The notes beneath the pieces are model-generated. The model was not told where the DNA came from. It saw nothing but the letters and a program-made list of their open reading frames with translations, and made no database searches. A stretch of 64,000 nt of DNA, from the NCBI RefSeq assembly GCF_001640025.1, contig NC_031672.1:2790001-2854000 (forward strand), given 5' to 3'. Both the position numbers and the translations under genes were made by a program. Numbering within the stretch: position 1 is the first letter of the stretch; every line of letters begins with the position of its first letter. This DNA is from Sugiyamaella lignohabitans (taxonomy: Eukaryota; Ascomycota; Dipodascomycetes; Dipodascales; Trichomonascaceae). Below are positions 3,648-58,611 of the stretch, piece by piece.

Positions 3648-3698
3648 TGCCTCCGGCGGCCGGGGCTCTGCCCCAGACCCCGTGGCTCGCTTCGCTCG
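3648..3698 (+). repeat. GC-rich element, solo degenerate arm
   Basis: The arm starts at TGCCTCCGGCGG and carries the GGGGC-TCT-GCCCC hairpin. Its inner part is shortened to a CGCTTCGCTCG end. No partner arm is nearby. Confidence 0.85.
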
Positions 3699-5723
3699 TT
3701 ACGCCCGGCAGGAGTTGCTTGTTACAACGGTTGGGAGTATTTGCAAAATCAGAGTTATCGTCAACGTCATCATGCTACTGTTTCAAGAAGAGATTCGCGT
3801 ATTTGCAGCTGGGAAAAATAAAGCCGAGAGCATAGACGGTACAGTCTCACCAAGTAAAGCACGGGTGCTCACCTTTTGGCCACAGAGTTTATTAATTCAA
3901 CCAGTAAAGATTTTTAATTGATTAACACAGTGATGGAAGTAAGCAATTGATCGAATAGTAATACCAGTCGGTGACACGCCAAAATCATAGCATACTTAAT
4001 AAGCTGTTTCAATGCTTGCCAAGAAACCAACCAGCCAATAATCTATGACTTGGAGTAAAAATAATAAATTAACTGATTCTACAATCACAATATAGTGTCA
4101 GCAGTTTCGTCCACTAATTACTAGGACTGGTTTGTTGTCAACTGTTGAAAAACTTGGAAAAAGGAAATTCGATTGTAATCAAGCGCAAAGTATTCAAAAA
4201 TGTGGTGAAGTTAGGAGTATTCAAGAGAGCGGACAAAAAAAAGTGGAAGTAATTACCGTCCATAAGCGTTATGGGGACATTCTGCACTGTACTACTGTGG
4301 GCTTGGTCTGTCCCCCGCTGTGTGATATGCCAGGGGTAGCGCAGGGTACAGCTGCCGGGTTGTACTCAGGGGGTTTGGCAATCAGGAGTTCGGGCCCGAA
4401 AGCTGCTGCTGGTGGGCGGCGGGCGATAAGCAGCCTCGGGGCCAGCGATCGGGAGTTTAAGCGTGCAGGTGGCTGCAACCCCTGGAATTACTCAAATCGG
4501 TAGGCATCTAATGCTGCCTCAAGCTGATCATTGATTTAAACTTCAAAACGTTAAAACTAAGTTTCATAAATCTATTAGAGTAGACGACAGTAAAAAGTAA
4601 GTGGCATTAGGACGACCGGGATATATCTGGTCAGCGCGACGGGGTAGGTATGCTGGTGCAGCCGGTACTCTCCTCCCAAATGTACCCCGGTTGAGGCCTG
4701 CATATAATCTTCCTGATATCGAGAGGTAAACATTGGGCCTGGCCCCTAGTTAATCTCCAGCATAATCTGCCCTTCACGACGCAATAGACTGGCTAGAACG
4801 GGCTCAGCCCGGCCCGCGTAAGCCAACCCAGTGCGGGGGCCCAATCCTGCCCGGTCCAACAACAGCCAATTGAGCCCGCTGGATTGTCGAGCATAATTTT
4901 ATAAACCACAGCTCATATCAGTTCTTAGACACAAATAATTCTATATATATTGGTATTCTGAGCATTATTCTCTGTGAGATCATAAGTCGCAGAATCGAGG
5001 TCCAAATCTTCACGGGCGTCATGGAAGGTCGCAACATTTATGAGGTGCAGGGTGTCCCAGTCTCAGTGGTCAAAGAATGTTTCAGCCGAGTTTCAGGCAG
5101 CGGGCGTAGTAAATTCAATGACCAGCTGCAGCAGTGGCTACACTTGGGCCCTCATCTGGGCTGCGTTTGGGCCGCTCCAGGCTGCTCGGGCCCCGAGCGT
5201 GCCCCCATGCCCAGCCGATATGCATGCATAAGCCCGATGGCCGCCTGCCCGTTATCTTGCATATAGGCCCGTTCGGCTTAACCTGCGATGAGATATCCCT
5301 TGGCATTTCCGTACTAAGTTAGGACCCCCGCGAGACAACCCCAAACGAGCTAGTGGTAGAATCAGATTTAGCGACAACACAAATGTTTAAACAGGAGAAA
5401 ACAAATAAAAGCTCATTTTCTTGCTGAAGTTCACCGGTTAGTTATGTGGTTATGTGGTCCATAAGTTATGCTACCATCTTGGCAGCACCATGCATGCATG
5501 CCTGGTCTGTGGGAGGAATCTCGACATAATTTTTATGACCCAATTACATATAAGCAACCGAATTCGCTCTTTTTTAATTCATTCTGTTTTTTCTCTTCTT
5601 CTCTTTAGAATAACACTTCTTGCTCTTCTACGACTTCAAGTTTTGTTCTGTGATTTTTTTAACCAGCGTTCAAACTCTCTATTATTATCGTTATTACTCT
5701 AGTGTGTTGATTACTTAGCCACT

Positions 5724-7178
5724 ATGAGTAGACTTGCTTCTCTTTCTGTCAAGAAAGCTGGTGCCCAATCCTCTCCTTCTGGTAAAGGCATTGGCCACCA
5801 ATCATCTTCAAACAAATCCAAATTGTTCTCTACTGGTTCAAAGGCCCTGAAAGCTATCAAACGAGCTTGCCATTCCAAATCCAGCTCCCAATCTATTGGT
5901 TCTAGTCAAACTTCTCAATCATCTGTTCTTGAAGTTAATTCCACCCAATCGTCAACAACTAAAGTTGACTTTGACCAGTATCCTCAATGTATTGTCCGTG
6001 GTTCCTCTTCATCAGTTATTGACTACCTAGCCGAAACTCCTATGGCTGCTCTTGACCTTTGTCCCTATGTTGACAAGACTGGTGCCGGCCCTTCTTCTAA
6101 GAGGGCCCCTTGGTGGGATCCTCTTCCTAAGCCTGACTCCTTCACCTACAGCACCACAGTCCCCTCTTCAAGATATCACAGCTCTACTTCGGACAGCAAA
6201 GGCAAATCCAATGTTTATTATTCCTCTGTCCCCATTACTGAGAAGCCAATTGATGATCCCCTCACCAAGTTCGCCAATTGTTCAGAAGGCTTCATTTATC
6301 AACTGTCGGTTGGAGACCACCGTCAGAATGCCTACGCATATCAGAACATATCCCAGTGGTCACGTATATTCAAGTGCCTTGATGATGGTACTGCTTCTCT
6401 TTCTGATGCCTCATCGCCTTCTCTATTCAAGAGATTTTGGTCGAAGCTCTTCAAGAAAACAAATCACGAAGTTCAATTCACTGAAGATTACTTCAAGCAG
6501 TTGGCAATTGATAACATGTCTAATTTATCATTTCAATCTTTCAATGACGAGGCATTTACCTCTATTAGAAAATCACTCGGAGTCAAGCTCCCTAATTGGA
6601 CTCACTTCTTGGTTGACGGTCATGATGACATTATTTATACCTATGACGGCAAATTCGCCCTTCATACAATTGATCACACAGAGGCCTCTGCTCTGTATGG
6701 AATGGCTACCAATCTCAGCCACCACTTGAACCGATACAAAAAAACACAAATCACTAATTACATTGGCCTGTATCGTGTTGGGAATCAATATTTTGCTCTT
6801 GAGAGCTTACCTTTCATTGAGACCAATCTAGTCAATGCCTTCTTCCTGCGTTATGATCCCACAGAGGCCAACATTTATCTCCCCCTCGAGAATGCCAAGT
6901 ATCCCATTCTCTCGTCTAAAAATTATAGACTTCAACCATTGACAAATCGTGCCACTAAACAGGACAAGAAAACATTATTCCGGGATCTCAAGTTCCTGAA
7001 GGACAATCTAGCCTTTGGCTACAGATTAATTGTAGGAGACATCAGGGGAGAACTCCGTTACAAATTTGGCAACGTTTTGCCGTCATTTTCCGACCCAGTC
7101 CCAAATCCACAAATCTGGACAATGTCGGAGTCACAATTCAATCTCTTCACTCGAGAGATTGATGTTGTGTTTCAGTAA
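5724..7178 (+). CDS. PIPK-fold protein, probable pseudokinase
   Basis: The 484-residue product has a Ser/Lys-rich N-terminus (about 1-110). The second half can be aligned by eye to the PIPK domain of its divergent neighbour: YTYDGKFALHTID matches FTPDGKYIIKTIK, TNYIGLYRVGNQYFALESL matches the strand pair before the activation region, and DLKFLKDNLAFGYRLIVGD matches DVDFLKRHNIMDYSLLVGL. Catalytic residues are lost. The ATP-site Lys is His (about residue 312), the DLKGS motif is absent, and the Asp of DYSLL is Gly (about 430). The frame is intact with no sign of decay, so it is more likely a functional pseudokinase, perhaps a regulator of PIPKs, than a pseudogene. The relationship is inferred from this alignment only. 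Confidence 0.7.
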   Translation: MSRLASLSVKKAGAQSSPSGKGIGHQSSSNKSKLFSTGSKALKAIKRACHSKSSSQSIGSSQTSQSSVLEVNSTQSSTTKVDFDQYPQCIVRGSSSSVIDYLAETPMAALDLCPYVDKTGAGPSSKRAPWWDPLPKPDSFTYSTTVPSSRYHSSTSDSKGKSNVYYSSVPITEKPIDDPLTKFANCSEGFIYQLSVGDHRQNAYAYQNISQWSRIFKCLDDGTASLSDASSPSLFKRFWSKLFKKTNHEVQFTEDYFKQLAIDNMSNLSFQSFNDEAFTSIRKSLGVKLPNWTHFLVDGHDDIIYTYDGKFALHTIDHTEASALYGMATNLSHHLNRYKKTQITNYIGLYRVGNQYFALESLPFIETNLVNAFFLRYDPTEANIYLPLENAKYPILSSKNYRLQPLTNRATKQDKKTLFRDLKFLKDNLAFGYRLIVGDIRGELRYKFGNVLPSFSDPVPNPQIWTMSESQFNLFTREIDVVFQ

Positions 7179-8179
7179 CAGTGAATCTAATCGGTATTGG
7201 TCTGTGCTAGTCTTGTCAATTCCTGTGACATTCCAGTGGTCATGCAACTTGCTCCTAGGCCCTCGATGGTGTAGGTGTCTTCCCATGTGGTAAGTAGAGC
7301 TTGGAGTTCTAAATCATTCCCAATGGCTTATGAGATCGTGAGTTGACTATTCGGTGCTACATGATATGGACCCATTCTGATTCAGGCGCCGCCCGACCGG
7401 CGACTGTTCGGAGTGGATCCAAATCAGTTGTTGTTTCCTTTTACCTCAGCCGGTTCAGTTCCTTGTGTAGTGGTGGGTATTCCTGCCATGGTATAGGAGT
7501 TGACTGGTGGCTCTGTAGTGGCGCGTTCTGCTGCCTTTCAGGTTAGGTGATGGGGATAGAGACAGTAGTGGCTGTTCTGATCCACGACAATTAGGCCATG
7601 GGTTCTGATGCAGACTCTAGGTTTCTTCAAGCCACTCAAGTAGACATCTGCGATTCTTGGGTACCCATCTTACCTTGTAGTTGGAACGACCTGACTTCTG
7701 ATAAGGAACCACAAGCCTGGTGCAGACCCACCGATGGATCACCACATTTCATCATCCTCATTATTTTTACGGGTCTCTCCTCTATTATTAATCTTTACAT
7801 GACCTCTGTTGTACTTTAATACATTATTTATTATTTCCTCCCTCTGTTACAACATGCCTAAGTTGCTTTATTCTAAAATATAGTCTCACTACATTGAAGA
7901 TACCAGAGTGAGTCTTAGTATCTAGTGGCATCTGTTTATTATATAATATAGATATACTACCCTCTTTATATTTCTGGGGAATACAGTCGATGGGGTACAA
8001 GCTTGATTGAAAGACATATTTCTGGTTCGTGGATATAAGTCGCTTTTTTTTGATTTCTAACAGTAGGTGTCAGCACCAGGCTCTTATGGACATGCAATCC
8101 TCTGCTATGAGCTACTCAGTAATTGGATGCGTTGAGGGGTTTGTGGGTGCTTTCTACATGTTTGTGCGGTAATAATAAT

Positions 8180-8270
8180 AATAAATCTTGTTTAAAGTCC
8201 TATACTATACATAATTAATAAAATTCAAATAATTTCAAATCCCATCATTTACACATTACCAGGAGGACTG
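8180..8270. repeat. Direct repeat, copy 1
   Basis: From AATAAATCTT through CATTACCAGGAGGACTG this segment matches 8637-8726 with a few substitutions and 1-base indels. No gene overlaps it. Confidence 0.85.
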
Positions 8271-8636
8271 ATTTGTGCGGTAAGTTCTCAGTTGGAAAAC
8301 ACAGAACAAATAAGCACCAGGTGTAGGTATCAATCCAAATGCCTGTTCAATAGAGGTGCAGCAGCAACAGCCACAATCTTTTTCAATTATCAAACTGCTG
8401 TACCCAAGGACTTGGTTTGGATGAGGTATGCCTCTGGCGGCTGGGAAAGTGCCGCACACCCCGCTGCTCCGCTCACTTAGCTCCAGTCGTCACTTCGAAT
8501 GTCCTGATAAAAATCCATCAAAACATTCATGGCCTGTAGTGGAGCCGCATTGGTGGGCGGAGGTAGACCATCGAATGAATAAATGTTGTTTCAGGTTCTA
8601 TACTATATATCCCTGTCGTGATGCAGGAAATGAATG

Positions 8637-8726
8637 AATAAATCTTTTTTAAAGTCCTATACGATACATAATTAATACAATTCAATAATTTCAAATCCCA
8701 TCATTTACACATTACCAGGAGGACTG
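8637..8726. repeat. Direct repeat, copy 2
   Basis: Second copy of the segment at 8180-8270, same orientation, about 460 bp downstream. The sequence between the copies has no recognisable coding content. Confidence 0.85.
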
Positions 8727-9213: not shown

Positions 9214-9342
9214 GGGAGTGTGGCCGAGTGGTCTAAGGCGCTAGCTTCAGGTTGACCAGTTCGAATCCTCATGGTTTCGAATTGATAAAATTTGTATGTT
9301 AGTCTACATTTGTGGGCAGGAGTTCGAACCTCCTCACTCTCA
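9214..9342 (+). tRNA. tRNA-Leu(CAG) with a 45-bp intron
   Basis: The gene folds as a class II tRNA: acceptor GGGAGTG/CACTCTC (one G-U pair), D arm GCCGAGTGGTCTAAGGC, anticodon stem CTAGC/GTTAG, a variable arm CTAC/GTGG, T arm AGGAG-TTCGAAC-CTCCT and discriminator A. The anticodon loop before the intron reads TTCAGG, so the anticodon is CAG, with T33 and G37. The intron is 9252-9296, after position 37. A run of nine T (9346-9354) follows as the Pol III terminator. The A73 discriminator and Leu-type D arm support leucine identity. The intron also contains AGTTCGAATCC (9259-9269), a good B-box look-alike. Confidence 0.92.
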
Positions 9343-9345
9343 ATA

Positions 9346-9354
9346 TTTTTTTTT
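9346..9354 (+). terminator. Pol III terminator of tRNA-Leu
   Basis: Nine consecutive T residues start 4 bp after the discriminator base. Confidence 0.85.
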
Positions 9355-12005: not shown

Positions 12006-12103
12006 TTCATTTCACACCACTGGACATTCAAATAAACCGTGAAGTGCAAGATCACAATCTCCAAATAAATTTAGATGCGGCGCATGCGGCGTACTATACT
12101 GAC

Positions 12104-12318
12104 CACCGGCGGCAGGGGCTCTGCCCCAGACCTCGTTGCTCCCCTCGCTGTGCTCGAGTCGACCATGGGGGGTTTGATAGAAAATAGATCACTTGTACTG
12201 AAGATTTAGATGATTATGGTGTGTGTATATAAAACAGTTCAGCGGCGGACCGGAGCTCGACTCGAGCGCAGCGAGAGGAGCAGCGGGGTCTGGGGCGGAG
12301 CCCCAGCCGCCGGAGGCA
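12104..12318. repeat. GC-rich element, two arms with a long spacer
   Basis: A somewhat diverged plus-oriented arm (12104-12161, core loop TCT) and a well-preserved minus-oriented arm (12258-12318, loop TCC) are separated by 96 bp instead of the usual 22. The minus arm ends 13 bp from the RIM13 stop codon, so it is transcribed in sense in that 3' UTR. Confidence 0.9.
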
Positions 12319-18091: not shown

Positions 18092-19098
18092 ACTAGACAG
18101 CCGACCGAATTTGCTGCAATGTAGATAGTGCCTAATGATGACTTTAATGATAAAAAGTGATAAATACGTTTTTAAATGCTCCAGAAAGGCAGAAACCCGG
18201 GATCAATGTTGAGTTTTTCAAGCATAGATCAAGCATCCATGTCACACAACAGGTTTGATTTGAAATATGAGAAACCCTGAAGCAGGGGACGTCCCCATTC
18301 CGACTCGAGCGAAGCGAGAGGAGCAGCGGGGTCTGGGGCGGAGCCCCAGCCGCCGGAGGCTGTATCACTCCTCGATGGTGCCTGGACCCTGCATATGCAC
18401 ACCAAGTCACGTGTATTTTACAAGCTCGATAGTTTTGACGGGAGAAGTGGAATAAAAACGGATACGAAAAACGGATTAACAGAGTTATAGTGAAAGCAAA
18501 GAAGGGAATCCTGTATCACCGAGAACGAGAGATATGTTTCACGCGAGATAGAACGTGGAATGAGAGGAAAGAGGCAGAGAGAGAGAGGACGAGTCGTGCG
18601 GCGGAACGGAGATGCCCGTACCCTGGATCACCACCTTCGGTGGAGAGTGAAGAGGACTTTTTCAAAATGTGATATGTTCATGTGAGAAGCAGCCACAAAG
18701 TAACGAAGGGAGTTGTCGTTTTGACTAGGTTTGTTTTTTTGTCGAAAATTTTTGTTGTTTCGTTTTTGAAATTTTTGCATTGGTATTAGCATTTTTCGGG
18801 ATTTTGTATTTTTTCCAAAAATATTTTTAAAAGTATAGCCGAGCGAACGACTCATTTTCAAGGTTGGAAAAGTGAAATTTAAATTTAACCACGACTGATC
18901 CGTTCACTGACGAACTGCATTCATTTATTACTTGACTCATTTGGAATTCATAGTCGACTATTGCTTTTGTAAAAGTTTTGTAAAACCAAGAGGAAAAAAA
19001 TCGACGAATCGATAAAAAACGAGCGATTCAACAAAGACTCGAACTAAAATTGAAAATTAATAAAAATAATCATAATAAGCATCAGAAAAGCGTAAACA
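18092..19098. other. Intergenic region SEM1 to BTB gene
   Basis: No gene supported. It holds one solo GC-rich arm (18301-18361) and an AT/purine-rich leader before 19099. Confidence 0.5.
18301..18361 (-). repeat. GC-rich element, solo arm
   Basis: Complete minus-oriented arm with core loop TCC and inner apex GCGAAGC, about 210 bp after the SEM1 stop. It is one of the few arms lying antisense to the gene before it. Confidence 0.9.
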
Positions 19099-20749: not shown

Positions 20750-20810
20750 TGCCTCCGGCGGCTGGGGCTCCGCCCCAGACCCCGCTGCTCCTCTCGCTCC
20801 GCTCGAGTCG
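20750..20810 (+). repeat. GC-rich element, arm in the 3' UTR of the BTB gene
   Basis: Complete plus arm, core loop TCC, 58 bp after the stop and in sense with the gene. Its partner may be 21257-21317. Confidence 0.9.
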
Positions 20811-21256: not shown

Positions 21257-21317
21257 CGACTCGAGCGAAGCGAGAGGAGCAGCGGGGTTTGGGGCGGAGC
21301 CCCAGCCGCCGGAGGCA
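21257..21317 (-). repeat. GC-rich element, arm in the 3' UTR of CWC24
   Basis: Complete minus arm with core loop TCC, ending 74 bp from the CWC24 stop and in sense with that gene. Confidence 0.9.
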
Positions 21318-22885: not shown

Positions 22886-24211
22886 ATGGCAACTTTAGAA
22901 GACTTGGATGCACTGGAGAATACCAATCAAGCTACAAATGATGCTACTATGAAAGACGCGCCTCCAGCTGAGGACGATTTGGACGATGAAATCCTTAAAG
23001 CATCGACTCAGGAAATCATCAATCGTCGAAAGCTGCTGGAAAATGATATCCGAGTGATGCGATCCGAGTTCCAAAGATTGACACATGAAAAGAATGCCAT
23101 GACTGATAAGATCAAAGACAACCAGGAAAAAATAGAAAACAACCGACAATTGCCGTACTTGGTGGGTAATATCGTCGAACTATTGGACATGGAAGGCGAG
23201 GCCACTGAAGAGGGAGCCAACGTTGATCTGGATGCTGCTCGAGTGGGTAAATCAGCCGTTGTTAAGACATCAACTAGACAAACAGTATTTTTACCATTGA
23301 TCGGATTAGTCGATCCAGCGACGTTGAAACCGGGTGATCTGATTGGTGTTAACAAGGATTCATACTTAGTATTAGACACGTTACCAGCTGAGTACGATAG
23401 TCGAGTTAAAGCCATGGAAGTCGATGAAAAGCCTACTGAGACATATTCCGATATTGGAGGTTTGGATAAACAGATTGAAGAGTTGGATGAGGCAGTTGTA
23501 TCGCCTATGAAGCAGGCTGATAAGTTTAAAGCGATGGGTATCAAAGCACCAAAGGGAGCTCTTATGTATGGACCTCCTGGTACTGGTAAAACGTTATTAG
23601 CAAGAGCATGTGCTGCACAAACCAATGCCACATTCCTCAAACTGGCAGCTCCTCAACTGGTGCAAATGTTCATTGGAGACGGAGCCAAGCTTGTCAGAGA
23701 TGCATTTGCACTTGCCAAAGAAAAGGCACCGACCATCATTTTCATCGACGAATTGGATGCCATTGGAACCAAGAGATTCGACTCGGACAAATCTGGAGAT
23801 CGTGAAGTACAAAGAACCATGTTGGAACTGCTTAACCAGCTCGACGGTTTCGGCAGTGACGACCGAGTCAAGGTGCTTGCTGCCACCAACCGAGTCGATG
23901 TCCTTGACCCGGCTCTTCTTCGTAGTGGTCGTCTCGACAGGAAAATCGAGTTCCCACTGCCCAATGAAGAATCTCGTGTTGGCATTCTACAGATCCACTC
24001 GCGTCAAATGACAGTCGACGACTCGATCAACTGGCAAGAACTGGCCCGTAGTACCGACGAGTTTAACGGAGCACAACTAAAAGCCGTGACCGTCGAGGCC
24101 GGTATGACAGCCCTCCGAGCCGGCAAGTCCCGCATCACCCACGAAGACTTCGTCGAGGCCATCAGCGAGGTCCAGGCCCGCAAGTCTAAATCGGTCTCCT
24201 TCTACGCTTAG
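22886..24211 (+). CDS. RPT5: 26S proteasome regulatory ATPase subunit 6A
   Basis: The 441-residue product has a coiled coil (about 30-90), an OB domain and an AAA+ module. Walker A GPPGTGKT is at 229-236, Walker [10 protein letters not shown] follows, and [19 protein letters not shown] is the SRH/arginine-finger region. The C-terminus ends SFYA as in yeast Rpt5, a tail that docks into the 20S alpha ring. The ATPase unfolds substrates in the proteasome base. I chose the ATG at 22886 ([10 protein letters not shown]), giving a length close to yeast (434 aa); the frame is open for 24 codons upstream to another ATG, but those residues do not resemble the family. Confidence 0.96.
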
Positions 24212-24245: not shown

Positions 24246-24383
24246 TGCCTCCGGCGGCTGGGGCGCTGCCCCAGACCCCGTAGCTCCTGCTTCGCAGGAG
24301 TTTGCGACGACCGTGGACGTGACGACTCGAGCGGAGCGAGAGGAGCCGGGGGGTCTGGGGCGCAGCCCCAGCCGCCGGAGGCA
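24246..24383. repeat. GC-rich element, complete copy between convergent genes
   Basis: 138 bp. The left arm is of the short type (core loop GCT, inner hairpin CTCCTGC-TTC-GCAGGAG); the right arm is of the long type (loop TGC, apex GCGGAGC). It fills most of the 225 bp between the RPT5 and PRP17 stop codons, so both genes may transcribe it. Confidence 0.93.
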
Positions 24384-24436: not shown

Positions 24437-26248
24437 CTAGTCCCAGTAATGGATGGGCGAGTCGAGGCCGGCAGTGGCCACTTTGCTCGTTTCCTGGGGA
24501 TGGGCCGAGATGCATGTCACGAGCGAGTTGTGGACTTTGAGTTTGCGACGGACGGCCGTGGTTTTCCAGTCCCAGAAGAATGCGAAACCTTCGCTGTCGC
24601 CGCTCATGAGATATCGGCCGTCGGGCGAGAAACTGACCTCGGTCGCGAACCCGGGGTTGTTGTATCCAGTGAACTCTTTTTTACGGTTGGCTTTGAACCG
24701 GTCAGTGGCGCCAAACACGAGAATGCGGTTGTCCATGCTTTGAGCAGCAACATGTTTTCCACTTGGATGCAACTTCACAGACGGCATCGAGTGTTGGAGA
24801 GGGTCGGAGATGAATTTGATGGGCACATTGACTCCCCAGTCCCATACTCGGATCGACTTGTCGTCAGACGTGGTCATGAACCGGTGGTTATCGTCGACAA
24901 ATGTAATTGTGTTGACTGCTTCTAAATGATGGTCGTACTCTTGTACAATTTCTTGTGTTCGAATGTCAAACTGGAGAATCTTTTTATTGGCCATGGCAGC
25001 CACAAACTCGTGGCTGTGTTCAGGTCTTGGGTTGAATCGTATACTATTGGCTACACTGTTGCCACGGCCAAACCTGGATATACATGTACCAGTCTCAGTG
25101 TCCCATAATTTAATCGTTCTGTCGTATGAGCAACTTAAGAATTGCGTTCCATCTGGACTGAAATCAATGTCCTTTACTGCCTTTGCATGTCCGCTGTATG
25201 ATCTTAGAAGCTCTCGGTCATGATAAACGTCCCAAAGACGAATTTTACTGTCGTTTCCTGCTGATAATAGGAGGTGTCCACTTTGTGGAAAGAACCGTAG
25301 TCCAGTGACTCCTCCAGCATGTCCTCTCCATGTGTGTATTTTCTTCTTGGGAATGAACCATTCCTCTTGTCCTGGTTCTTTTCGAAGATTGATATCAAGA
25401 TCCTGAGGCACAAACATATATGTTCTACCGAGATAATCTCTCTCAGTCGATCCGTGGAACTGTGTCGTCTCTCCTGTTTCACTTGTACTTGTACTTGTAG
25501 CAGTTGTAGGTTCTGAGGGTGATACAGTATCTTTAGCTTCTGCTGTTTCGCTATCTTCAACAGCCTTATCATTTGTTTTAGTAGCAGCAGCAGCATCTTC
25601 TTCTTCGTCTTCTTCGTCGACTTCATCTTCATACTCATCTGACGAGGTACTCTCTTCTTTGAACTTGGCCCATGGTCCCTTGTACGAGTCATCACCATCG
25701 AGAACACTTGGGTCTCCCTTGGATCTTTTGCTTCGTACTTGTTTCTGTTGAGCTTTATCTGGTCGAAACATCGAAGCATCTCTGCCTAAATTCACACGGG
25801 CTTTCTCCAGATCTCCTATCAGCGAGGCTCCAGAAACACCATTATCGTCGATACTAGGGTCATAAGCATAACCGAGGTTTTGAAAAGTTCGATGTTGAAC
25901 TTTGAACGTGGCTTCATTAAATGCTTGTTCTTCAGCATGGCCAGTGAGAATATTCCGTCGTTTCTTGGTCGGTCTGCTCGACTGTTCTACGTCGTACCGC
26001 TGATTTGGCTGATACAAGACATTTTTCTCGTTCCTCAGCTGTTCAAGCTGGTGATTCGTCGTATGCAGCGTCAGACTCGTATTATCAACGCTGGGTTTTA
26101 TAACTGAGGACAACTCCGTACTGGATTTATGAACAGCTGGAGCAGCATTCATGGATTTTGGTACCAGAGACGATGGCTGATTGGGTCCATTGTGAACGGC
26201 GTTTTCGTCGTCGTCACTCGAGTCTCCACCATATGCGACAAGAGCCAT
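24437..26248 (-). CDS. PRP17: Pre-mRNA-processing factor 17, WD40 splicing factor
   Basis: The 603-residue protein has an acidic, low-complexity N-terminal half and a C-terminal WD40 propeller (about 320-603) starting after the conserved YLGRTYMFVPQDL and IPKKKIHTWRGHAGGV. Repeats include LSAGNDSKIRLWDVY, LSCSYDRTIKLWDTE and MTTSDDKSIRVWDW. Prp17/Cdc40 acts in the second catalytic step of splicing. I start at 26248 (MALVAYGGDSSDD), as in homologs; the frame stays open to an ATG at 26302, but that 18-residue extension is unlike the family. It is divergent from BCP1 and convergent with RPT5. Confidence 0.94.
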   Translation of the reverse strand: MALVAYGGDSSDDDENAVHNGPNQPSSLVPKSMNAAPAVHKSSTELSSVIKPSVDNTSLTLHTTNHQLEQLRNEKNVLYQPNQRYDVEQSSRPTKKRRNILTGHAEEQAFNEATFKVQHRTFQNLGYAYDPSIDDNGVSGASLIGDLEKARVNLGRDASMFRPDKAQQKQVRSKRSKGDPSVLDGDDSYKGPWAKFKEESTSSDEYEDEVDEEDEEEDAAAATKTNDKAVEDSETAEAKDTVSPSEPTTATSTSTSETGETTQFHGSTERDYLGRTYMFVPQDLDINLRKEPGQEEWFIPKKKIHTWRGHAGGVTGLRFFPQSGHLLLSAGNDSKIRLWDVYHDRELLRSYSGHAKAVKDIDFSPDGTQFLSCSYDRTIKLWDTETGTCISRFGRGNSVANSIRFNPRPEHSHEFVAAMANKKILQFDIRTQEIVQEYDHHLEAVNTITFVDDNHRFMTTSDDKSIRVWDWGVNVPIKFISDPLQHSMPSVKLHPSGKHVAAQSMDNRILVFGATDRFKANRKKEFTGYNNPGFATEVSFSPDGRYLMSGDSEGFAFFWDWKTTAVRRKLKVHNSLVTCISAHPQETSKVATAGLDSPIHYWD

Positions 26249-26721: not shown

Positions 26722-27839
26722 ATGTCTGGAGCTGGTATTAAAAGAAAGCAAGACGGTCTGTCTGCGGAAGTGGCAGATAAAAATGACCAATCAAATAGTT
26801 CCATTGGCACACCCGAGAAGAAACCAGACAACAATGTCAAGAATGACCAAGAAGATGAGGACGAAGATGACGACGAGGAAGAGGAAATCGTCAACGTCGA
26901 TTTCGACTATTTCGATATTAAAGAGATCGATTTCCATGCCACGAAGAACCTACTTCGTCAACTGCTGGATGCTGACGCCGTAGAGTTCGATCTGTCGGCC
27001 CTGGCAGACCTCATCATCACCCAGAGCTCTCTGGGATCCACAATCAAAACCGACGGTGTCGACAGCGATCCATTCGCGATCCTGACAGTCCTAAACCTCA
27101 ACCAACACAAAGACAAGCCCGTAATCAAAGCACTCGCCGACTATTTCATCCAGAAAACGGCCAACTCGGCCGAGTTCAACCGCAAACTGCGCCAACTCTT
27201 CTCGACCTCATCAACATCCTCCGTGGGTCTCATCATCCAAGAAAGACTCATCAACATGCCCACCGAGGTCGTGCCACCCATGTACAAAATGCTCGCAGAC
27301 GAGCTCGAAGAAGCCGTCAAACAGGTACGTCAACCGCACATGCCTCCGGCGGCTGGGGCTGCGCCCCAGACCCCGCTGCTCCTCTCGCTGCGCTCGAGTC
27401 GTTGCGTCTACGGTCCCAGCAATCTCCTGCGAAGCAGGAGCAACGGGGTCTGGGGCGGAGCCCCAGCCGCCGGAGGCAATGACCCCCTTCAGAACTAACA
27501 TCGCCTCAGAAAGAGCCATTCGAGTTTGATTATTTCCTGATTCTGTCGAAATCTTTTACTGAAGAGGAGTCGAAACTGGACCAGGAAGACAGCCGTCCCA
27601 GTAAGAAACGGTTCCAGAACAAGAAACAGGTGTACTATTTCCACCCGGAAGACGAGACTATTCACAAGCATGCAGTTCACAAGATCAGTTATCCGTTCTC
27701 CAGACAGTCACAGGAATCCGACTCCAAACGGGCATTCCAGGACTACGGGATCCATCCGCAGGGCCACCTGATCCTTCTCAAGAAAGAAGAACTGCTACCA
27801 GTCATTCACGACCTCGAACAGGCGTTTCCTCCTTTTTAA
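26722..27839 (+). CDS. BCP1: Bcp1/BCCIP-family nuclear protein, intron carrying a GC-rich element
   Basis: Two exons (26722-27324 and 27510-27839) encode 310 residues. The 185-bp intron has donor GTACGT, branch AACTAACAT and acceptor CTCAG, and both exons keep phase 0. The protein starts with an acidic stretch (EDEDEDDDEEEE) followed by VNVDFDYFDIKEIDFHATKN, the BCCIP signature. The second exon supplies the conserved FEFDYFLILSKSF and QVYYFHPEDE. Yeast Bcp1 (283 aa) chaperones ribosomal protein uL14 and exports Mss4, a PIP kinase. Unspliced, the frame runs through the repeat and stops, giving a 258-residue read-through protein with a PPAAGAAPQTP tail that is likely spurious. Confidence 0.93.
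27341..27478. repeat. GC-rich element, complete copy inside the BCP1 intron
   Basis: 138 bp, long-type arm first (loop TGC), spacer, then inverted short-type arm (loop TCC). It leaves only 16 bp to the donor and 31 bp to the acceptor, so the intron is almost wholly the element. Confidence 0.95.
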
Positions 27840-28561
27840 TTCAGCTGCATTTTTGTTTAAAATTCGGTGGGGTCTGGCTGCCTCCGGCGGCTGGGGCTGC
27901 GCCCCAGACCCCGCGGCTCCTCTTGCTCCGCTCGAGTCGTTTAACGTCGGGATCCCAGCAATAACTGCTGCGAAGCAGGAGCCACGGGGTCTGGGGCAGA
28001 GCCCCAGCCGCCGGAGGCAGTCAGGGGTAATCAAGTCGATCGGCAAGGGTCGCGGCGATGCGGGGTGTTGTCAAGCCGTATGGTGGGGTGGTTGTCGGCT
28101 CGGTTAAATCTGCAGCAGCTGCTGCTGCCCGTGATTTTCAGATGCTCGTCTTCTGCTCTACAGATTTTGTCACCTCTCTCTGGCTCAAGAGATAGAACGC
28201 TATTAAAACACTATTTATTCGCCAGGCTCTTGTTTTGGTTTTGTTTGGTACGTTTACAGGTCTGAAAGAACAAATTATTTTGTATTCGAGACTGGCATAA
28301 ACTGCCGGATATTTCCATAGCAATTGCAGTGGATTATATTATTTTGCATTTGATTCGACATCCGGTTCCCAGTTCACGGGTCGTTGATTCTCGGTGAATT
28401 GCTTGTGATACGGTTGAGAACAGTTTCTTGTATTTTAGGTGACATTTAGGAATTCCATTTGTTGCTCGCTGATTAGTTTCTTTATCGGAATTGATTTGGT
28501 TGTTGTTATTTATTTAGGACTATCGGTTGAAGTATAGCTTGGGTTTCTGTTGTTACACCAT
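27840..28561. other. Intergenic region BCP1 to Pex30-like gene
   Basis: 722 bp holding one complete GC-rich element and then T-rich promoter or leader sequence. No gene seen. Confidence 0.5.
27879..28019. repeat. GC-rich element, complete copy in the BCP1 3' UTR
   Basis: 141 bp, starting 39 bp after the BCP1 stop. Core loops TGC (left) and TCT (right). The spacer ends CCCAGCAATA, akin to the intronic copy 400 bp upstream. Confidence 0.94.
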
Positions 28562-31303: not shown

Positions 31304-31364
31304 CGACTCGAGCGAAGCGAGAGGAGCCGGGGGGTCTGGGGCGCAGCCCCAGCCGCCGGAGGCA
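31304..31364 (-). repeat. GC-rich element, solo arm in gene desert 1
   Basis: Complete minus arm, core loop TGC, far from any gene (over 1.3 kb), the only one in the desert. Confidence 0.9.
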
Positions 31365-35723: not shown

Positions 35724-35774
35724 TGCCTCCGGCGGCTGGGGCGCTGCCCCAGACCCCGTAGCTCGCTTCGCTCG
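35724..35774 (+). repeat. GC-rich element, truncated arm after the dioxygenase gene
   Basis: Plus arm, core loop GCT, shortened inner part like the copy at 3648. A decayed TGCCTCCGCCGACTGAGGCA near 36150 may be another remnant. Confidence 0.88.
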
Positions 35775-37964: not shown

Positions 37965-38104
37965 TGCCTCCGGCGGCTGGGGCTGCGCCCCAGACCCCCC
38001 GGCTCCTCTCGCTGCGCTCGAGTCGAGCGTCGACGGTGCCCCCAAACGTCTCCTGCGAAGCAGGAGCCACGGGGTCTGGGGCAGAGCCCCAGCCGCCGGA
38101 GGCA
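37965..38104. repeat. GC-rich element, complete copy, mirror partner of 38300-38439
   Basis: 140 bp, long arm (loop TGC), spacer, short arm (loop TCT). Nearly the exact reverse complement of the next copy. Confidence 0.95.
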
Positions 38105-38299: not shown

Positions 38300-38439
38300 T
38301 GCCTCCGGCGGCTGGGGCGCTGCCCCAGACCCCGTGGCTCCTGCTTCGCAGGAGACGTTTGGGGGCACCGTGGACGCTCGACTCGAGCGCAGCGAGAGGA
38401 GCCGGGGGGTCTGGGGCGCAGCCCCAGCCGCCGGAGGCA
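38300..38439. repeat. GC-rich element, complete copy, mirror partner of 37965-38104
   Basis: 140 bp, short arm first (loop GCT), then long arm (loop TGC). By eye it differs from its partner mainly at one spacer base and at the apex of one core hairpin. Confidence 0.95.
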
Positions 38440-38634: not shown

Positions 38635-38692
38635 TGCCTCCGGCTGCCGGGGCGTTGCCCCGGACCCCATGGCTCCTCTCGCTTCGCTCGAG
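38635..38692 (+). repeat. GC-rich element, diverged solo arm
   Basis: Plus arm with several substitutions (GGCTGCCGGGGC) and core loop GTT. The stem keeps pairing (GGGGC/GCCCC). Confidence 0.85.
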
Positions 38693-41127: not shown

Positions 41128-41188
41128 CGACTCGAGCGCAGCAAGAGGAGCCACGGGGTCTGGGGCAGAGCCCCAGCCGCCGGAGGTA
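41128..41188 (-). repeat. GC-rich element, solo arm
   Basis: Minus arm, core loop TCT, one change in the inner hairpin (GCGCAGCAAG) and GGAGGTA at the outer end. Confidence 0.9.
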
Positions 41189-41503: not shown

Positions 41504-41642
41504 TGCCTCCGGCGGCTGGGGCTCCGCCCCAGACCCCGCTGCTCCTCTCGCTACGCTCGAGTCGGGATGTGGGGGCCACTCGGAAACTCCTGCGAAGCAG
41601 GAGCAACGGGGTCTGGGGCGGAGCCCCAGCCCGCCGGAGGCA
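41504..41642. repeat. GC-rich element, complete copy
   Basis: 139 bp. Long arm (loop TCC, apex GCGTAGC on the minus strand), then short arm (loop TCC) with an extra C (CAGCCCGCCGG). Confidence 0.94.
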
Positions 41643-42299: not shown

Positions 42300-42352
42300 C
42301 TCGAGCGAAGCGAGCTACGGGGTCTGGGGCGGAGCCCCAGCCGCCGGAGGCA
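42300..42352 (-). repeat. GC-rich element, truncated arm
   Basis: Minus arm, loop TCC, with a shortened inner part (CTCGAGCGAAGCGAGCTACGG). Confidence 0.88.
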
Positions 42353-42509: not shown

Positions 42510-42562
42510 TGCCTCCGGCGGCCAGGACGCTAGCCCCGGACCCCGCTGTGCTCGCATCGCGA
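42510..42562 (+). repeat. GC-rich element, decayed arm
   Basis: Begins TGCCTCCGGCGGC, but the core hairpin is disrupted (CAGGACGCTAGCCCCGG). A CTCGCATCGCGAG end is visible. Confidence 0.7.
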
Positions 42563-42959: not shown

Positions 42960-43097
42960 TGCCTCCGGCGGCTGGGGCTCCGCCCCAGACCCCGTAGCTC
43001 CTGCTTCGCAGGAGTTGGCTAGCGATCCCCACGCAACGACTCGAGCGGAGCGAGAGGAGCAGCGGGGTCTGGGGTGGAGCCCCAGCCGCCGGAGGCT
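42960..43097. repeat. GC-rich element, complete copy
   Basis: 138 bp, short arm first (loop TCC), then long arm (GGGGTGGAGCCCC, one stem change creating a G-T pair). Confidence 0.94.
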
Positions 43098-43911: not shown

Positions 43912-43972
43912 CGACTCGAGCGAAACGAGAGGAGCAGCGGGGTCTGGGGCGGAGCCCCAGCCGCCGGAGGCA
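43912..43972 (-). repeat. GC-rich element, solo arm
   Basis: Minus arm, core loop TCC, one change in the inner hairpin (GCGAAACGAG). Confidence 0.9.
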
Positions 43973-47415: not shown

Positions 47416-47476
47416 TGCCTCCGGCGGCTGGGGCTCCGCCCCAGACCCCGCTGCTCCTCTCGCTCCGCTCGAGTCG
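47416..47476 (+). repeat. GC-rich element, arm with duplicated spacer
   Basis: Plus arm, core loop TCC, followed by GTTACGTCTAGACCCCTTGCAAAC, which parallels the spacer of the next copy. It looks like a partial tandem duplication of that copy. Confidence 0.92.
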
Positions 47477-47515
47477 GTTACGTCTAGACCCCTTGCAAAC
47501 ACTGGGATCGGGTTG

Positions 47516-47654
47516 TGCCTCCGGCGGCTGGGGCTTCGCCCCAGACCCCACTGCTCCTCTCGCTCCGCTCGAGTCGGTTATGTCTGGCTCCCTTGCAAAC
47601 TCCTGCGAAGCAGGAGCTACGGGGTCTGGGGCAGCGCCCCAGCCGCCGGAGGCA
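47516..47654. repeat. GC-rich element, complete copy
   Basis: 139 bp, long arm (loop TTC), spacer, inverted short arm (loop GCT). Confidence 0.94.
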
Positions 47655-47673: not shown

Positions 47674-47724
47674 TGCGAAGCAGGAGCCACAGAGTCTGTG
47701 GCAGAGCCCAAGCTGCCGGATGCC
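47674..47724 (-). repeat. GC-rich element, decayed short arm
   Basis: GCGAAGCAGGAGCCAC start is kept. The core has become GTCTGTGGCAGAGCCCAAGC and the outer end CTGCCGGATGCC. Adjacent to the complete copy. Confidence 0.75.
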
Positions 47725-51094: not shown

Positions 51095-51331
51095 CTCTCC
51101 AATAAATTATTCATTTAATCTGTTCGCGCCTCCGGCGGCTGGGGCTCTGCCCCAGACCCCGTGGCTCCTCTCGCTGCGCTCGAGTCGGGCGTGGGGTCCC
51201 CTAGAACCGGTGAATAAACAGCTGACAGAGTCCCGAAATCCGACTCGAGCGTAGCGAGAGGAGCAGCGGGGTCTGGGGCGGAGCCCCAGCCGCCGGAGGC
51301 AAAACACGGCAAAGAGAAAGCAAATAAATAA
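51095..51331. other. Convergent intergenic region RFT1 / Hrd1-like gene
   Basis: 237 bp between two stop codons, mostly occupied by the GC-rich element at 51128-51301. Confidence 0.6.
51128..51301. repeat. GC-rich element between convergent genes
   Basis: Plus arm 51128-51187 (loop TCT) and minus arm 51241-51301 (loop TCC, apex GCGTAGC), both of the long type, with a 53-bp spacer. Each arm is sense to the gene it follows. Confidence 0.92.
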
Positions 51332-52618: not shown

Positions 52619-54544
52619 AATATGTTCAGTCCTAAGTGGACTACTGCTACTATTGAGAGCAGTCCAGAAGTTCAGAACGGTTCAACAGAACCAAGATTCA
52701 AAAGATGTTACCGAAAATCAACAATCGAAAAACCTAATTCCAAACGCCAAAAGACAACTATCACTATGGATCAACAGCTTAAGAAAATTTCAAAGTCTGT
52801 CAAAACAGAAACCAAAATCAAAATCAAATACAAAAGATAAAACTCAGAAGAACAAGCTGAAGAAAAAACGACACAGAAAGGCCGATTTCAATGCTATACG
52901 TTTCAAATGTGCCACCGTTGGACTCGTAGTGATTCAGATTTGGATGTGAACAGCCGAGTTCTCTGTAGAAAACCTACTAGCTTCTCAAATCAACTCAAGT
53001 CTGCTGAAACTAATCGCCAAGTATCTCTTATAACCTACGATTTAGGTCTGAATCTGTTTATGTCGTGTTCAAGTAAAATGCAAAGTGCCTCGATTATACG
53101 CGGGCAAATGCTTCACCAGCTGCTGGCCCCTAACTTAATGTGTGGGGGTGTGGCTCAGCAGCTGACCTTAGTTCTATGTCGGGTGATTCGTTTTCGTATC
53201 ACCAAAAAATCCCCCAATACGTCTGTTGACTCGTTTAGGGCCATAAATGTTTGTGCCTGAAATAAGTTTTTTCGCAGATTCGCAACCAAATCTTAATCGC
53301 CTCCATTCACGCTCATCACTTCCCCTAGATAAGAAATTATTTCTTCCTGATAAAGGGTCCGCATTTCACCTAACCCAATGACCTTTAAAGCTAAAGAGTC
53401 TATGCAAGTTAATAATATTAATACTCCCCTCTTATTCGATGATATTTTATTTAATCTACTTAATCTAGACAATGATGATACATAGAGAGATTATAGAGAG
53501 ATTATAGTCATGGAACTAGATTGAAACATGCCTGCCCTGCCAGTTGTCTAAAAGTAATATTGATTTTTAAGCTGGTTGCAGAAGAGCACAAATGAGGACA
53601 AGAAGAAATTATATATAATATAATTCCAAGAAATATGAAGAAACGCCATATGACTCAATCAGTCTTTAATCGACTAATGAAGTACTCAAAGTTTAAGTTT
53701 ACTAATGATAAGTAATGAGCATTGAAAACAAGACAGATCCAGTAAGAGACCTGCAACAGAAGTATTGATTGACATGTGACAGAACTTTCATCTGTCTGCT
53801 CACGTGAGCTCATACCTGATTGAGGATGCCATTTTTTTTCGGATTCTTCTAGGTAGAGGTTTCTGACAAAGGGGGTTTTCAGGTTTGTGCTTTTTTTTCT
53901 ATTTTGCAAGTTCCACTTGAGGTACACTGCTACAGTTCACAGCTTTTGATCGACTCGAGCGAAGCGAGAGGAGCCACGGGGTCTGGGGCAGAGCCCCAGC
54001 CGCCGGAGGCAGTCTGTTAGTAGCAACAGTAGACGTAGAATGTATTATTATTAAAGACAAAGTTGGTAATCTATAGTAGTGATGAGTTCCGTCCAGTGAT
54101 GTGAATGAGATCCAAGGATGGTTTGGGATGTGATTGCAGTGATAATAGTAGTCACCAATCACAGGCCAAGATGAATACATCCTACTCTGATGGAAAGTGT
54201 TGTCAGGGGGTGTCAGTCAGTCTTGGAGTCATAAGATGGTCTCGGTTGGTTTCCAGAGGTGGGAAGGACAGATTATTGATGGTTAGCTATCCCAGTATGA
54301 CTCGGGATGTCATACTACTGCGACCTCAAGTTAGGGATATCAAGCGCAAGAACTGCAGCTATCGGCTATCCCAATTCTGAGAGGGGCAAAGGATGCTGGC
54401 CAGTCCATTTCCACTGCCATACCAACACAATGTCGGCAAAGCAACTTAGAAATGGTACCACGAAGGACGTGTCAACAATGGTGTCTGAAGTGTTGTGAAT
54501 GATGTAAAACCAACTGACTAGGGGTGTAAGAGACCGAGGACCAC
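52619..54544. other. Intergenic region Hrd1-like to membrane protein gene
   Basis: 1.9 kb. ORFs at 52622-53260 look compositional (Lys/Gln-rich or weak) and are not called. One solo GC-rich arm at 53951-54011. Confidence 0.45.
53951..54011 (-). repeat. GC-rich element, solo arm
   Basis: Complete minus arm, core loop TCT, apex GCGAAGC, about 530 bp from the 3' end of the next minus-strand gene. Confidence 0.9.
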
Positions 54545-55435: not shown

Positions 55436-58204
55436 TGTGATGAAAGTCTTAACAATGACGGTGAGTTGTGAGTGAGTGGTAATTTAATTGTGGGTCAAGT
55501 AGTCCAGTGGAAATCGGTTATAATTGGTTCCGATTTCAGATTATTATCAATTGATAGTCTTCTTGAATCTAAAAACGAGTCAAGAATGATCAATGAGCCG
55601 ACAAACGATTAATTAAGAACAGATGTTTTACCAAATGATGGCCAATGAGAAAGACCAAGGTAAAGCTGTTACAATCGTTTGAAAGAGGCGGAGCACGACC
55701 AAAGTACTCTGCTAAACAGATAAAATAATAATAAAAGCTAGAGGGGTCTGGAATAGACTAATGCCGACTAGTAATAGCTACCAAGGTACAAGGTAGAAAC
55801 TCTTTCAAATCGTAACAAAAAACGTTACAATCAAGACTACCACAACAAATAAACAGTTGTAAGTCTTAAAATAACAATCAATAATAAAAAAAGGATTCGA
55901 AACGGTTGAAATGTTGTTAAAACTCGCAAACTTTGATCTCGGCTGTAAAATCTCTTGAGCAGAAAAGGTAGAGAGGAAGAAAAGAACGAGGGAAAAATGT
56001 CGTCCTAATAAACTACGAATCCCATAATCTATCTAACACAGCCTTGTACAACAGAACGCCGCGCGGCGTCACCCCTGTTAGTGGGATATTGGCTCGGACC
56101 CTGCGTTATCTCGCATATGCAGGGACTACTGTGGGAAAATCGTTTCTGCAAAGTAGCATTAAAGTTAGACATCGAGACTTTCACTAGTCGCTGCTTCTCC
56201 TGAGATCATATATTATTGCGTAGAAAATCTCTCTGATAATATCTGGTAATAAGGTGACTATTATTATATATATTTATTCACAATATAATTGCGTCAAAGT
56301 ATTACCTGGGCAATATTTAACCGAACTTTTAGCAAGTCGGAAATTTATCCTCCTCTATCAATCCTCATTCCCGATGGTTGGCTGACTTCTGATGTGACAG
56401 ATCAAGTGACCTGTCATGTTTGGGACTGCTGGCAAGGTTGCAAGGTTGTCCCATGCCGGCCAATCTTCATGCATGGCTGGGTGCTGCCAGCCGTTATCTT
56501 GCAGATTATCCGCTCGCCAAATATATGAAAATATATGATTACTCCTGGCATTCCAACTCAACTGAGTTCCACAGTTGACAATTTGCCAATTCTTCTACCA
56601 TACACACACTTATTTTTCCTTTTTGCCAAGCTGAGGAACCTGGGTCAAGCTATTGGTGTATCGATACTGCCGCAAGACGACGATCGCATGGGCCCTGCAT
56701 GTTGCTGTAAGCCAATCAAAAGGAGGTTTCTAAATCAACACATGAAGATTATATGCCTCTGAAAATTGCCTCCGGCGGCTGGGGCTCCGCCCCAGACCCG
56801 GTGGCTCCTCTCGCTGCGCTCGAGTCGTGCTTGTGGGACCCGACCTCTACGTCCCGAGTGGTTGGTATTGGATCCCACGTCTTAATAATTTATCCACTGG
56901 ACTATAGATCAATCCAAACTAACATTTGAATCTCACTAGCAGTCGAGATTTAAAATTGGATTGGAACAGCAGTTGGATATGGCTTAGGCTCAATGACTGA
57001 TACAGGCACTGGTTCAATTACTACTACAAGAGCTAAACAATCACCGTTGTATATCCGACAAATCACTATTCAAGAATTTTAAACAATTAATAGAAATTGC
57101 TGTTACCTATCCAGTAAGATCACTTGGTTCATACCCGCCAACTCGTAACGGTTGAGTGAGGTCTTAGAGCTCGGACTACAGATCTGGCTCTAGCGTTTTA
57201 GTCAGAGTTTTGCCAGCTCTATGACTTATCTTCAGCTCTCTGCAATTGTTGAAATCGTCTCATGACGATTACAATAGCTTATCCGTTCTAACGGATAATG
57301 ACTTCCGCCATCGCCAAGGCTTACTCCTGAAACTGCCTCATTCGGCATATCTCACGTGACTATGTCGAATACTACGGTTCGGCTGGCCAGTCACCATGTT
57401 TGTTTACATTGTCTAATTGATGTGAGATAACCAAGTTCGTGGTCCATATCTTCAAAACAGTGCCAGTTCCAAATCAGGCAGAATGGCCTATTTGTGTATA
57501 GAGATACTCTTTGAAAACTGTTAGGGCAATTTAATTGACCCCTACAATTTTAGTAGGCCACTATCCCTCTCAGGCATCAGACCAACTTTGCAATGGACTT
57601 GGTTATCCAAATCCAGGACTAAAAGCTTCTGGAATATTTATAATTGGCACTGGATACTCATTTCCTTTCTCAGATTTTGGCCATTTGGTTCTTTATACTA
57701 TTTTCAGATACCCGTTATCGTCCATCTGATTCACATCACAAGACTCCACCTATGTTGTGGTGTCCTAGCCCCGTTAAAGAGGTTAGATGGTGTCGACGAT
57801 CGCCCAGTAAGGTGACCTACTCCCAGATTATACAATTTCACCTGACCCGACTCATCACTTTTGGAACGGCCCTATTACATTCCAATACTGCTCTCTGTCC
57901 TATTCATGGCCTTCTATCTCTCCAATAGACTCACCAGGATGCTTTTTGATTCAGACAGACCCCAAGCTGGGACAGACAAAACCCCCACCACGCCGAAGAA
58001 CGCCGCAGTTAATTAAGGGTTAGGGCGGAGACGTTGTCTGAGGGATAATGGGGTTCGGGGCCAAAATTTTTCAGGCAGAAATTTTTTTTTCAGGGCATGC
58101 AGTAATTTTTAAACGCTGATATTTCTCGCTTTCTTCTCTCTTTTTTTTTCTTTTCCTTTTCTTCACACCTTTTTTTTAATACAAAAAAAAACAAAAAAAT
58201 AAAA
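55436..58204. other. Intergenic region membrane protein gene to SSB
   Basis: 2.8 kb without a supported gene. Contains two copies of the CGTTATCTYGCATAT segment (56104-56118 and 56492-56506), one solo GC-rich arm (56767-56827), and, from about 58080, the pyrimidine-rich SSB promoter and leader with poly-A/T tracts. Confidence 0.5.
56767..56827 (+). repeat. GC-rich element, solo arm
   Basis: Complete plus arm, core loop TCC, one change beside the core (AGACCCGGTGG). Confidence 0.9.
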
Positions 58205-58611
58205 GTAAGTAGTGCCATTTAGACAACTGAGCATGCTACGAGGGACAATGAAACCCGAATGTTAATAATCTGGACTGAATTGGCCGTTTGAAAGATTTTC
58301 AAACGGGCGAGGATTCGATGAAATCTGGTTGAATTTTGTACGAAGTTTCACTGGGAAATTGCTACTTCGCGCATTTTTTCTTGCAACCTACTTTCCACGA
58401 ATTCACCTAGAAATACATTTCGAGGGGGCCTGAAAGCCTCCGGCGGCTGGGGCTTCGCCCCAGACCCCGTTGCTCCTGCTTCGCAGGAGTTGCTGGGACC
58501 GTCGACGAGACGACTCGAGCGAAGCGAGAGGAGCAGTGGGGTCTGGGGCGAAGCCCCAGCCGCCGGAGGCATATGTCTCCAGCCACAGAGAACCCGTGCT
58601 AACAAAACTAG
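58205..58611 (+). other. Predicted 5'-UTR intron of SSB
   Basis: A GTAAGT donor follows the pyrimidine-rich leader. GCTAACAAAACTAG supplies a branch site and acceptor directly before the SSB ATG. The 407-bp intron contains a complete GC-rich element (58436-58571). The first exon would be non-coding. Inferred from splice signals only. Confidence 0.6.
58436..58571. repeat. GC-rich element, complete copy inside the predicted SSB intron
   Basis: 136 bp, short arm first (loop TTC), spacer GCTGGGACCGTCGACGAGA, then long arm (loop TTC). It ends 40 bp before the SSB ATG. Confidence 0.94.

Follow-up and report, generated by a model that had tools for sequence, protein, structure and literature searches.

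The window analysed here, 64,000 nucleotides of nuclear DNA from the yeast Sugiyamaella lignohabitans (C1:2,790,001-2,854,000), carries many copies of a GC-rich hairpin repeat that belongs to a real and abundant family. The family resembles the REPINs, inverted doublets of repetitive extragenic palindromic (REP) sequences that form hairpins, and is probably mobile. We put the probability at roughly 0.6 that the repeats are a non-autonomous, REPIN-like family of mobile hairpins in a yeast nuclear genome, spread by a factor acting in trans. REPINs are described in bacteria, and the GTAG kind is linked to REP-associated tyrosine (RAYT) transposases. The assembly holds 15,932,016 bases (15.93 Mb) in 4 contigs, and the relevant passage of a review gives 16.0 Mb in 4 chromosomes, 50% coding (PMC5499181). 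The contig bearing the window is 5.9 Mb long and has conserved nuclear genes, one of them with an intron, so a mitochondrial location does not apply. Statistics on individual arms come from 264 contiguous kb around the window (C1:2690001-2954000), and the genes in the counts of location are open reading frames (ORFs) rather than annotation.

In general form, an arm consists of a stem-loop that stands between the constant box (T)GCCTCCGGCGG and the equally constant GACCCC; in the yeast a second stem-loop follows. The yeast plan reads (T)GCCTCCGGCGG, the hairpin CTGGGGC-NNN-GCCCCAG and ACCCC, followed by an A ending (CTCTCGCTNCGCTCGAGTCG) or a B ending (CTCCTGCTTCGCAGGAG); two other types of second hairpin, C (GTGCTCGCTTCGCGAGC) and D (GCTCGCTNCGCTCG), occur in the 264 kb. 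A complete element joins an A arm and a B arm in inverted order around a variable spacer. Scanning both strands with a 34-nt core, at least 22 of whose 31 scored positions had to match, and grouping arms less than 160 bp apart as one locus, we counted 38 arms in the window, which form 26 loci; none of 20 first-order Markov simulations of the window contained an arm. An earlier, sequence-only reading of this DNA had put these numbers at about 37 and about 25; all nine of its complete copies were recovered with the plan it described, and they measure 137-141 bp where it had given 136-141 bp. The inverted outer ends that it reported are present too, with a correction at their tip: the first base varies most (T in 91% of 135 arms, against 99% for each of the next two), so the conserved end starts at GCCTCC.

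A search of the rest of the genome, which that reading had called for, found the family to be abundant. Exact copies of TGCCTCCGGCGG number 5,858 (2942 + 2916 by strand; reversed control 0 and 2), exact arms of the pattern GCCTCCGGCGGC-N6..30-GACCCC number 3,709 (1858 + 1851; reversed pattern 0), and 1,035 exact two-arm interiors of the form A-spacer-B are present (519 + 516; reversed control 0). Among the 142 arms of the 264 kb, 32 inverted +- doublets span less than 165 bp, compared with a random mean of 4.5 and a maximum of 11 in 500 trials; the other close pairs comprise 2 in -+ orientation and 12 on the same strand. Paired arms have kept a perfect core in 45 of 64 cases and solo arms in 35 of 78 (p 0.0025, one-sided rank test). 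As single-stranded DNA, the element at 27341 folds to -70 kcal/mol (shuffle mean -33), and two solo A arms fold unremarkably, with 9 and 43 of 200 shuffles as good. Stem variation is compensated, as in CTGGGGC/GCCCCAG versus CCGGGC/GCCCGG. The outer pairs of 44 distinct yeast and bacterial hairpins make up 264 cells, of which 240 are Watson-Crick; 2000 column shuffles, which ignore relatedness among the hairpins, give a mean of 202 and a maximum of 218.

These properties follow what the compared passages on Pseudomonas REPINs report: short palindromic extragenic units, inverted doublets above chance that form one long hairpin, spacers less conserved than arms, and singlets more decayed than doublets (PMC3116915). 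The yeast family shows the doublet excess, the singlet decay, the compensated stems and an extragenic location. It differs in being nuclear rather than bacterial (bacterial counterparts exist, as described below), in its longer arm with two hairpins, in its A and B types and in that no associated RAYT (Y1 HUH) transposase was found by the profile search reported below; the box GCCTCCGGCGG does not appear in the compared passages of PMC3116915. The GTAG and CGTC superfamilies of REPs, in the sections of PMC3733652 that were compared, also combine a constant tag with a stem-loop, have compensated stem variants and head-to-head dimers and lie mostly downstream of genes, and the CGTC repeats have no dedicated transposase. 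In the yeast, by contrast, GCCTCCGGCGG and GACCCC flank the first hairpin in place of the tag. All 28 B arms counted in the 264 kb have a GTNG tetranucleotide before the second hairpin (GTAG 9, GTGG 7, GTTG 12); this recalls the GTAG tag of bacterial REPs and may be fortuitous. The DNA uptake sequences of Neisseria are alike in having a constant word of about 10 nt in nearly two thousand copies, with close pairs mostly +- and often between convergent genes, according to the passages compared (PMC1852404). Unlike the yeast repeat, they are an uptake signal without an internal hairpin in each arm, and we propose no uptake role in yeast. Letter and topic searches of the searchable part of the open literature returned no description of the repeat in yeast or bacteria, in agreement with the sequence-only reading, which knew of none for yeast nuclear DNA; among the letter matches that were inspected, the sequence fell in primers, a phage terminator table and a construct sequence.

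One trace of movement is an element with a private spacer. A 26-nt stretch comprising the spacer and the start of the B hairpin occurs genome-wide, at up to 3 mismatches, only at 37965 and 38300, where the flanks are unlike (on the A side 6 of 14 bases agree; the B side was compared by eye). The presence of this element twice, inverted and between unrelated flanks, indicates that an exact 140-bp unit was copied. More widely, dispersed elements have in common a spacer consensus near TTGCGTCGACGGTCCCAGCCAT, and their flanks are not common. No target-site duplication was found in the 29 paired copies of the 264 kb, allowing up to 2 bases of slack: exact flank repeats of at least 4 bases occur in 0 of 29 (permuted 0.8) and of 3 bases in 1 of 29 (permuted 3.8). 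The same 29 copies show no more flank complementarity than permuted flanks, and target palindromes, as well as clone-specific direct repeats around A half-elements, do not exceed those of permuted pairs. The absence of target-site duplication that had been noted by inspection thus holds for these copies. The remark that the repeats are unlike classical long terminal repeat (LTR) or terminal-inverted-repeat elements is also right. The proposal of a non-autonomous mobile element gains from the private-spacer duplication, the shared interiors between unrelated flanks and the lack of target-site duplications, and it falls short of proof.

A G-rich run lies 5′ of the arms, at about -13 to -4, with G at 39-57% per position versus a background of 23% (135 arms). 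G content over -14 to -4 is alike in paired and solo arms (0.47 and 0.48), and many single arms are without a G-run. Beyond the second hairpin, the A arms that lack a recognised B partner, 38 in number, run on as the consensus GGCGTCGGGGGTCCC, reaching background after about 17 bases, although at least 4 of the 38 do have a diverged or different partner (41504, 158699, 118247 and -26917, in window coordinates) and some stand in A-A pairs. GGGGTC is complementary to the arm's own GACCCC and could pair with it. In IS200/IS605 elements, base-pairing guides direct insertion. By analogy, we infer that pairing of the G-rich run with GACCCC may guide insertion here. As a separate observation, a young LTR retrotransposon (C1:2860777-2867641, window +70777 to +77641), whose 650-bp LTRs are identical and whose target duplication is TTGGG, sits in a G-rich gap of 15 bp with a degraded arm remnant on one side and an intact hairpin arm on the other.

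We propose the following scheme for the spread of the family. The replicating unit would be the A and B arms inverted around a variable spacer, able to fold into one long hairpin, and would be copied into new places through a folded single-stranded form. The copying enzyme would be encoded elsewhere and recognise the box and hairpin, and insertion would occur next to a G-rich run able to pair with the arm's own GACCCC. With less assurance, we would count the bacterial arms as members of this family too, related either through horizontal transfer or through use of a common kind of mobiliser.

Those bacterial arms came to light through the exact core CCTCCGGCGGCTGGGGCNNNGCCCCAGACCCC, present in 4 contigs of a bacterial and archaeal collection (three Desulfovibrionaceae and one Acetobacteraceae metagenome-assembled genome, MAG). 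The arm pattern matches 197 times in Solidesulfovibrio, 323 times in the Acetobacteraceae MAG and 8 and 93 times in the other two, with 0 for the reversed control; a few arms can count twice in these figures. The first 99 listed arms of the MAG form 24 +- pairs less than 300 bp apart and no -+ or same-strand close pairs. In the phylum of Solidesulfovibrio 5 of 198 sampled genomes match, two of them multicopy (197 and 29), and in the family of the MAG 15 of 120 match, three of them multicopy with hairpins (323, 20 and 5). The remaining 3 and 12 matching genomes have one match each and no clear stem by eye, and such single matches are at chance level because the reversed pattern also gives one in 4 of 198 and 7 of 120 genomes. 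In the portion of PMC3733652 consulted, Acetobacteraceae are listed as without CGTC repeats, and 'Desulfo' is absent from the main text. The sequence-only reading, whose choice of a mobile element is supported, had missed the REPIN anatomy and this multicopy repeat of Desulfovibrionaceae and Acetobacteraceae.

We entertain only tentatively the wider claim that one replicator family (GCCTCCGGCGG, hairpin, GACCCC) moves in some Desulfovibrionaceae and Acetobacteraceae as well as in the yeast nucleus, where it has reached thousands of arms, through an unrecognised enzyme other than a Y1 RAYT. The yeast and bacterial repeats could instead be unrelated, with boxes common by accident or through separate needs and the bacterial ones acting as bidirectional terminators. 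Convergence of this sort is conceivable and, in our judgement, rather doubtful: the two boxes match over 18 bases and are placed alike on either side of a variable hairpin, none of the four genomes has a match to the reversed pattern, the other genomes of the sampled phylum and family have at most one match and the carriers 5 to 323, and one stem, CTGGGGC/GCCCCAG, is also common to yeast and bacterial arms. As to their surroundings, bacterial doublets in both Solidesulfovibrio and the MAG tend to be flanked by purine-rich DNA on the left and pyrimidine-rich DNA on the right, as bidirectional intrinsic terminators are. In 20 stretches of Solidesulfovibrio judged by eye, the flanks are mostly purine-rich, often with GGAGAAGTTTTT..AAGGGG after the first hairpin; the flanks of the MAG doublets include A- and T-runs. 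On viral contigs the yeast core and one bacterial form gave 0 matches each, and a looser bacterial form gave 7 stretches, 5 of which (on four contigs) look like hairpin arms by eye. These bacterial-type arms, on IMG/VR contigs classed as viral, point to a possible vehicle between bacteria. A search of plasmid DNA returned only partial matches (31% of the query, 85%) in four Streptomyces plasmids.

Several results weigh against a REPIN-like family spread by a trans-acting factor. In a search that covered the yeast and three bacteria, the Y1 transposase profile (PF01797) has no match in the yeast genome at E <=10 and none at E <=1 in the Acetobacteraceae MAG with its 323 arm matches; two Desulfovibrionaceae have four Y1 matches at three places, one locus being partly N, with no arm within about 1.5 kb. 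A longer autonomous copy was not found in the 264 kb. Empty sites were sought in two large duplications and an LTR family and none was found: the duplications, of 3.7 kb and 3.4 kb, either are without arms or have an arm in common, and the one split copy examined among 29 genome-wide LTR matches held 176 bp of unrelated DNA and no arm. The arms of 22 complete elements are nearly constant (7 mismatches in 1320 sites, about 0.5%, a figure biased downward because the elements were picked by arm similarity), whereas their spacers have diverged to a mean identity of 76% to the consensus (shuffled 58%), a contrast that would not be expected of a simple recent burst. It calls either for long-lived lineages under constraint or for host selection acting on the arms. 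Lineages with constrained arms, as in REPIN populations, fit the contrast better than a burst or gene conversion, and host selection may be the source of the conservation. Finally, solo A arms outnumber solo B arms by 39 to 10 among 75 solo arms (17 unclassed), an excess that simple doublet decay does not predict.

Candidates for an autonomous copy, which the sequence-only reading had suggested seeking as longer, transposase-encoding relatives, were rejected in both settings. None was found among the 9 wider + ... - arm pairs (0.4-8 kb apart) in the 264 kb of the 15.9-Mb genome; only two hold an ORF of at least 100 amino acids (aa), and these are host genes (peptidase M20 and TRM13). Three wider-spaced bacterial pairs, 1.2-2 kb apart, were examined, and the four ORFs scanned in them include no transposase: one encodes an FMN oxidoreductase, another a catechol dioxygenase and a third a PadR regulator, and the fourth is without a Pfam match. 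The Helitron profile PF14214 had no match in the yeast, nor in control genomes, which makes that search uninformative. An ORF spanning arms, compared with 5.8 billion proteins, gave one match at E <=0.01, the S. lignohabitans protein Seh1p.

The genomic location of the arms bears on whether they serve the host. ORFs of at least 200 aa make up 51% of the DNA and hold 5 of 82 arm loci, one of the five being an intron; for ORFs of at least 120 aa the figures are 55% and 19 of 82. Within tandem gene gaps 23 loci are nearer the gene end and 9 nearer the gene start, and convergent gaps hold 18 loci versus 12.5 expected (divergent 27 versus 29.6). This distribution fits purged insertions or a 3′ function. 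The arms could accordingly be host-functional sites, such as 3′-end, insulator or RNA-structure signals kept by host selection, an idea that draws on the avoidance of long ORFs, the preference for gene ends and convergent gaps and the far better conservation of arms than spacers. A mobile element purged from genes and promoters would show the same pattern of location, however, and one site per gene is unlike what is found: copies within 335 bp of each other (37965 and 38300), a copy in an intron (27341), tandem stacks, and an arm density that is very uneven among the matches listed. We regard a host function as unlikely. Around the intron copy, the BCCIP Pfam profile matches the upstream exon at positions 1-146 and the downstream exon at 149-204.

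Spread without a dedicated enzyme, by template switching during replication, by break repair at G-runs or by gene conversion, would account for near-identical copies lying close together (37965 and 38300; the tandem half-elements at window +111162 and +111259). It would also suit the sharing of spacers, which is greater between arms less than 1.2 kb apart than between distant ones (23 versus 1747 pairs, p 0.016), the high variability of the spacer at the hairpin tip and the G-runs beside the arms. Gene conversion should homogenise the 3-nt loops, yet within one element the two are alike in only 5 of 21 cases, and the exact, unchanging interior at more than 1,000 places argues for recognition of the ends. 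On balance this route seems improbable. Stacks of tandem solo arms that include flank, with periods of 68 and 97 bp, occur at window +117131 to +117300 and +111033 to +111260 and suggest local amplification.

A classical miniature inverted-repeat transposable element, mobilised by a DDE transposase that acts on its terminal inverted repeats, would match the family in its inverted ends, small size and high copy number. With no target-site duplication in 29 copies, common half-elements and arms that are each a hairpin with a covarying stem, we think this very improbable. Other GC-rich hairpin DNA of fungi, mobile or potentially so, includes the mitochondrial GC42 clusters, with conserved stems and variable loops (PMC4478555), and double-hairpin elements (PMC10085805); in the passages compared both are mitochondrial and of other sequence, and GC42 measures 42 nt and has short direct repeats. 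An escape of such GC clusters to the nucleus is scarcely credible: in the parts of PMC4478555 compared they are mobile GC-rich palindromes with a hairpin plus ACCCCG, conserved stems, variable loops and merging or shuffling, but they carry AG or ACT direct repeats, none of which was seen in the 29-copy flank test (two-base repeats were not scored separately), and the box GCCTCCGGCGG is absent from the quoted GC42 sequence.

Table 1 Arms and elements of the hairpin family in the window (window coordinates).
Feature	Position	Strand	Basis or context
Solo D-type arm, common to the 3.4-kb inverted duplicate of the region	3648-3681	+	core scan
Degenerate solo arm	8429-8462	+	26/31
Degenerate solo arm	12101-12134	+	26/31
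Solo A arm	12285-12318	-	core scan
Solo A arm	18328-18361	-	core scan
Solo A arm	20750-20783	+	core scan
Solo A arm	21284-21317	-	core scan
Complete element, B arm left, A arm right	24246-24383	-	gap between convergent ORFs 22886-24211 + and 24437-26248 -
Complete element in 185-nt intron (27325-27509) of BCCIP-family gene	27341-27478	+	core scan, Pfam BCCIP
Complete element, 40 bp past stop of BCCIP-family gene	27879-28019	+	core scan
Solo A arm	31331-31364	-	core scan
Solo D-type arm, second hairpin GCTCGCTTCGCTCG	35724-35757	+	core scan
Complete element with private spacer; sole other genomic copy at 38300	37965-38104	+	core scan
Complete element, inverted second copy of the 37965 private-spacer element, unrelated flanks	38300-38439	-	core scan
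Solo arm, compensated stem GCCGGGGC/GCCCCGGA	38635-38668	+	core scan
Solo A arm	41155-41188	-	core scan
Complete element, right arm with 1-nt insertion	41504-41642	+	core scan
Solo D-type arm	42319-42352	-	core scan
Degenerate solo arm, different second hairpin	42510-42543	+	23/31
Complete element	42960-43097	-	core scan
Solo A arm	43939-43972	-	core scan
A half-element directly upstream of complete element 47516, related spacer	47416-47515	+	core scan
Complete element	47516-47654	+	core scan
Degenerate arm	47691-47724	-	24/31 positions
Two inverted A-type arms (51127, 51268) around unrelated DNA, not a complete element	51127-51301	.	core scan
Solo A arm	53978-54011	-	core scan
Solo A arm	56767-56800	+	core scan
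Complete element	58435-58571	-	core scan

Apart from the repeats, PIP5K-family genes occur in segmental duplications that involve positions 284-7765 and DNA 17-47 kb before the start of the window. One duplication, of 3.4 kb, is inverted and about 95-96% identical; the other, of 3.7 kb, is direct and about 91% identical. Positions 61931-63907 hold a third PIP5K-like ORF. At gathering cut-offs, the single Rfam match in the window is one tRNA (9214-9342, + strand); at 129 bp it exceeds the usual length of such a gene and may contain an intron, and ARAGORN with bacterial settings did not report it.

If the REPIN-like reading is right, then with more than 1,000 doublets in a yeast nucleus, bacterial repeats that carry the same constant boxes and no RAYT gene detected, hairpin replicators would extend beyond a single domain of life and a single enzyme. 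S. lignohabitans would then be a eukaryote open to experiment in which the mobiliser could be sought.

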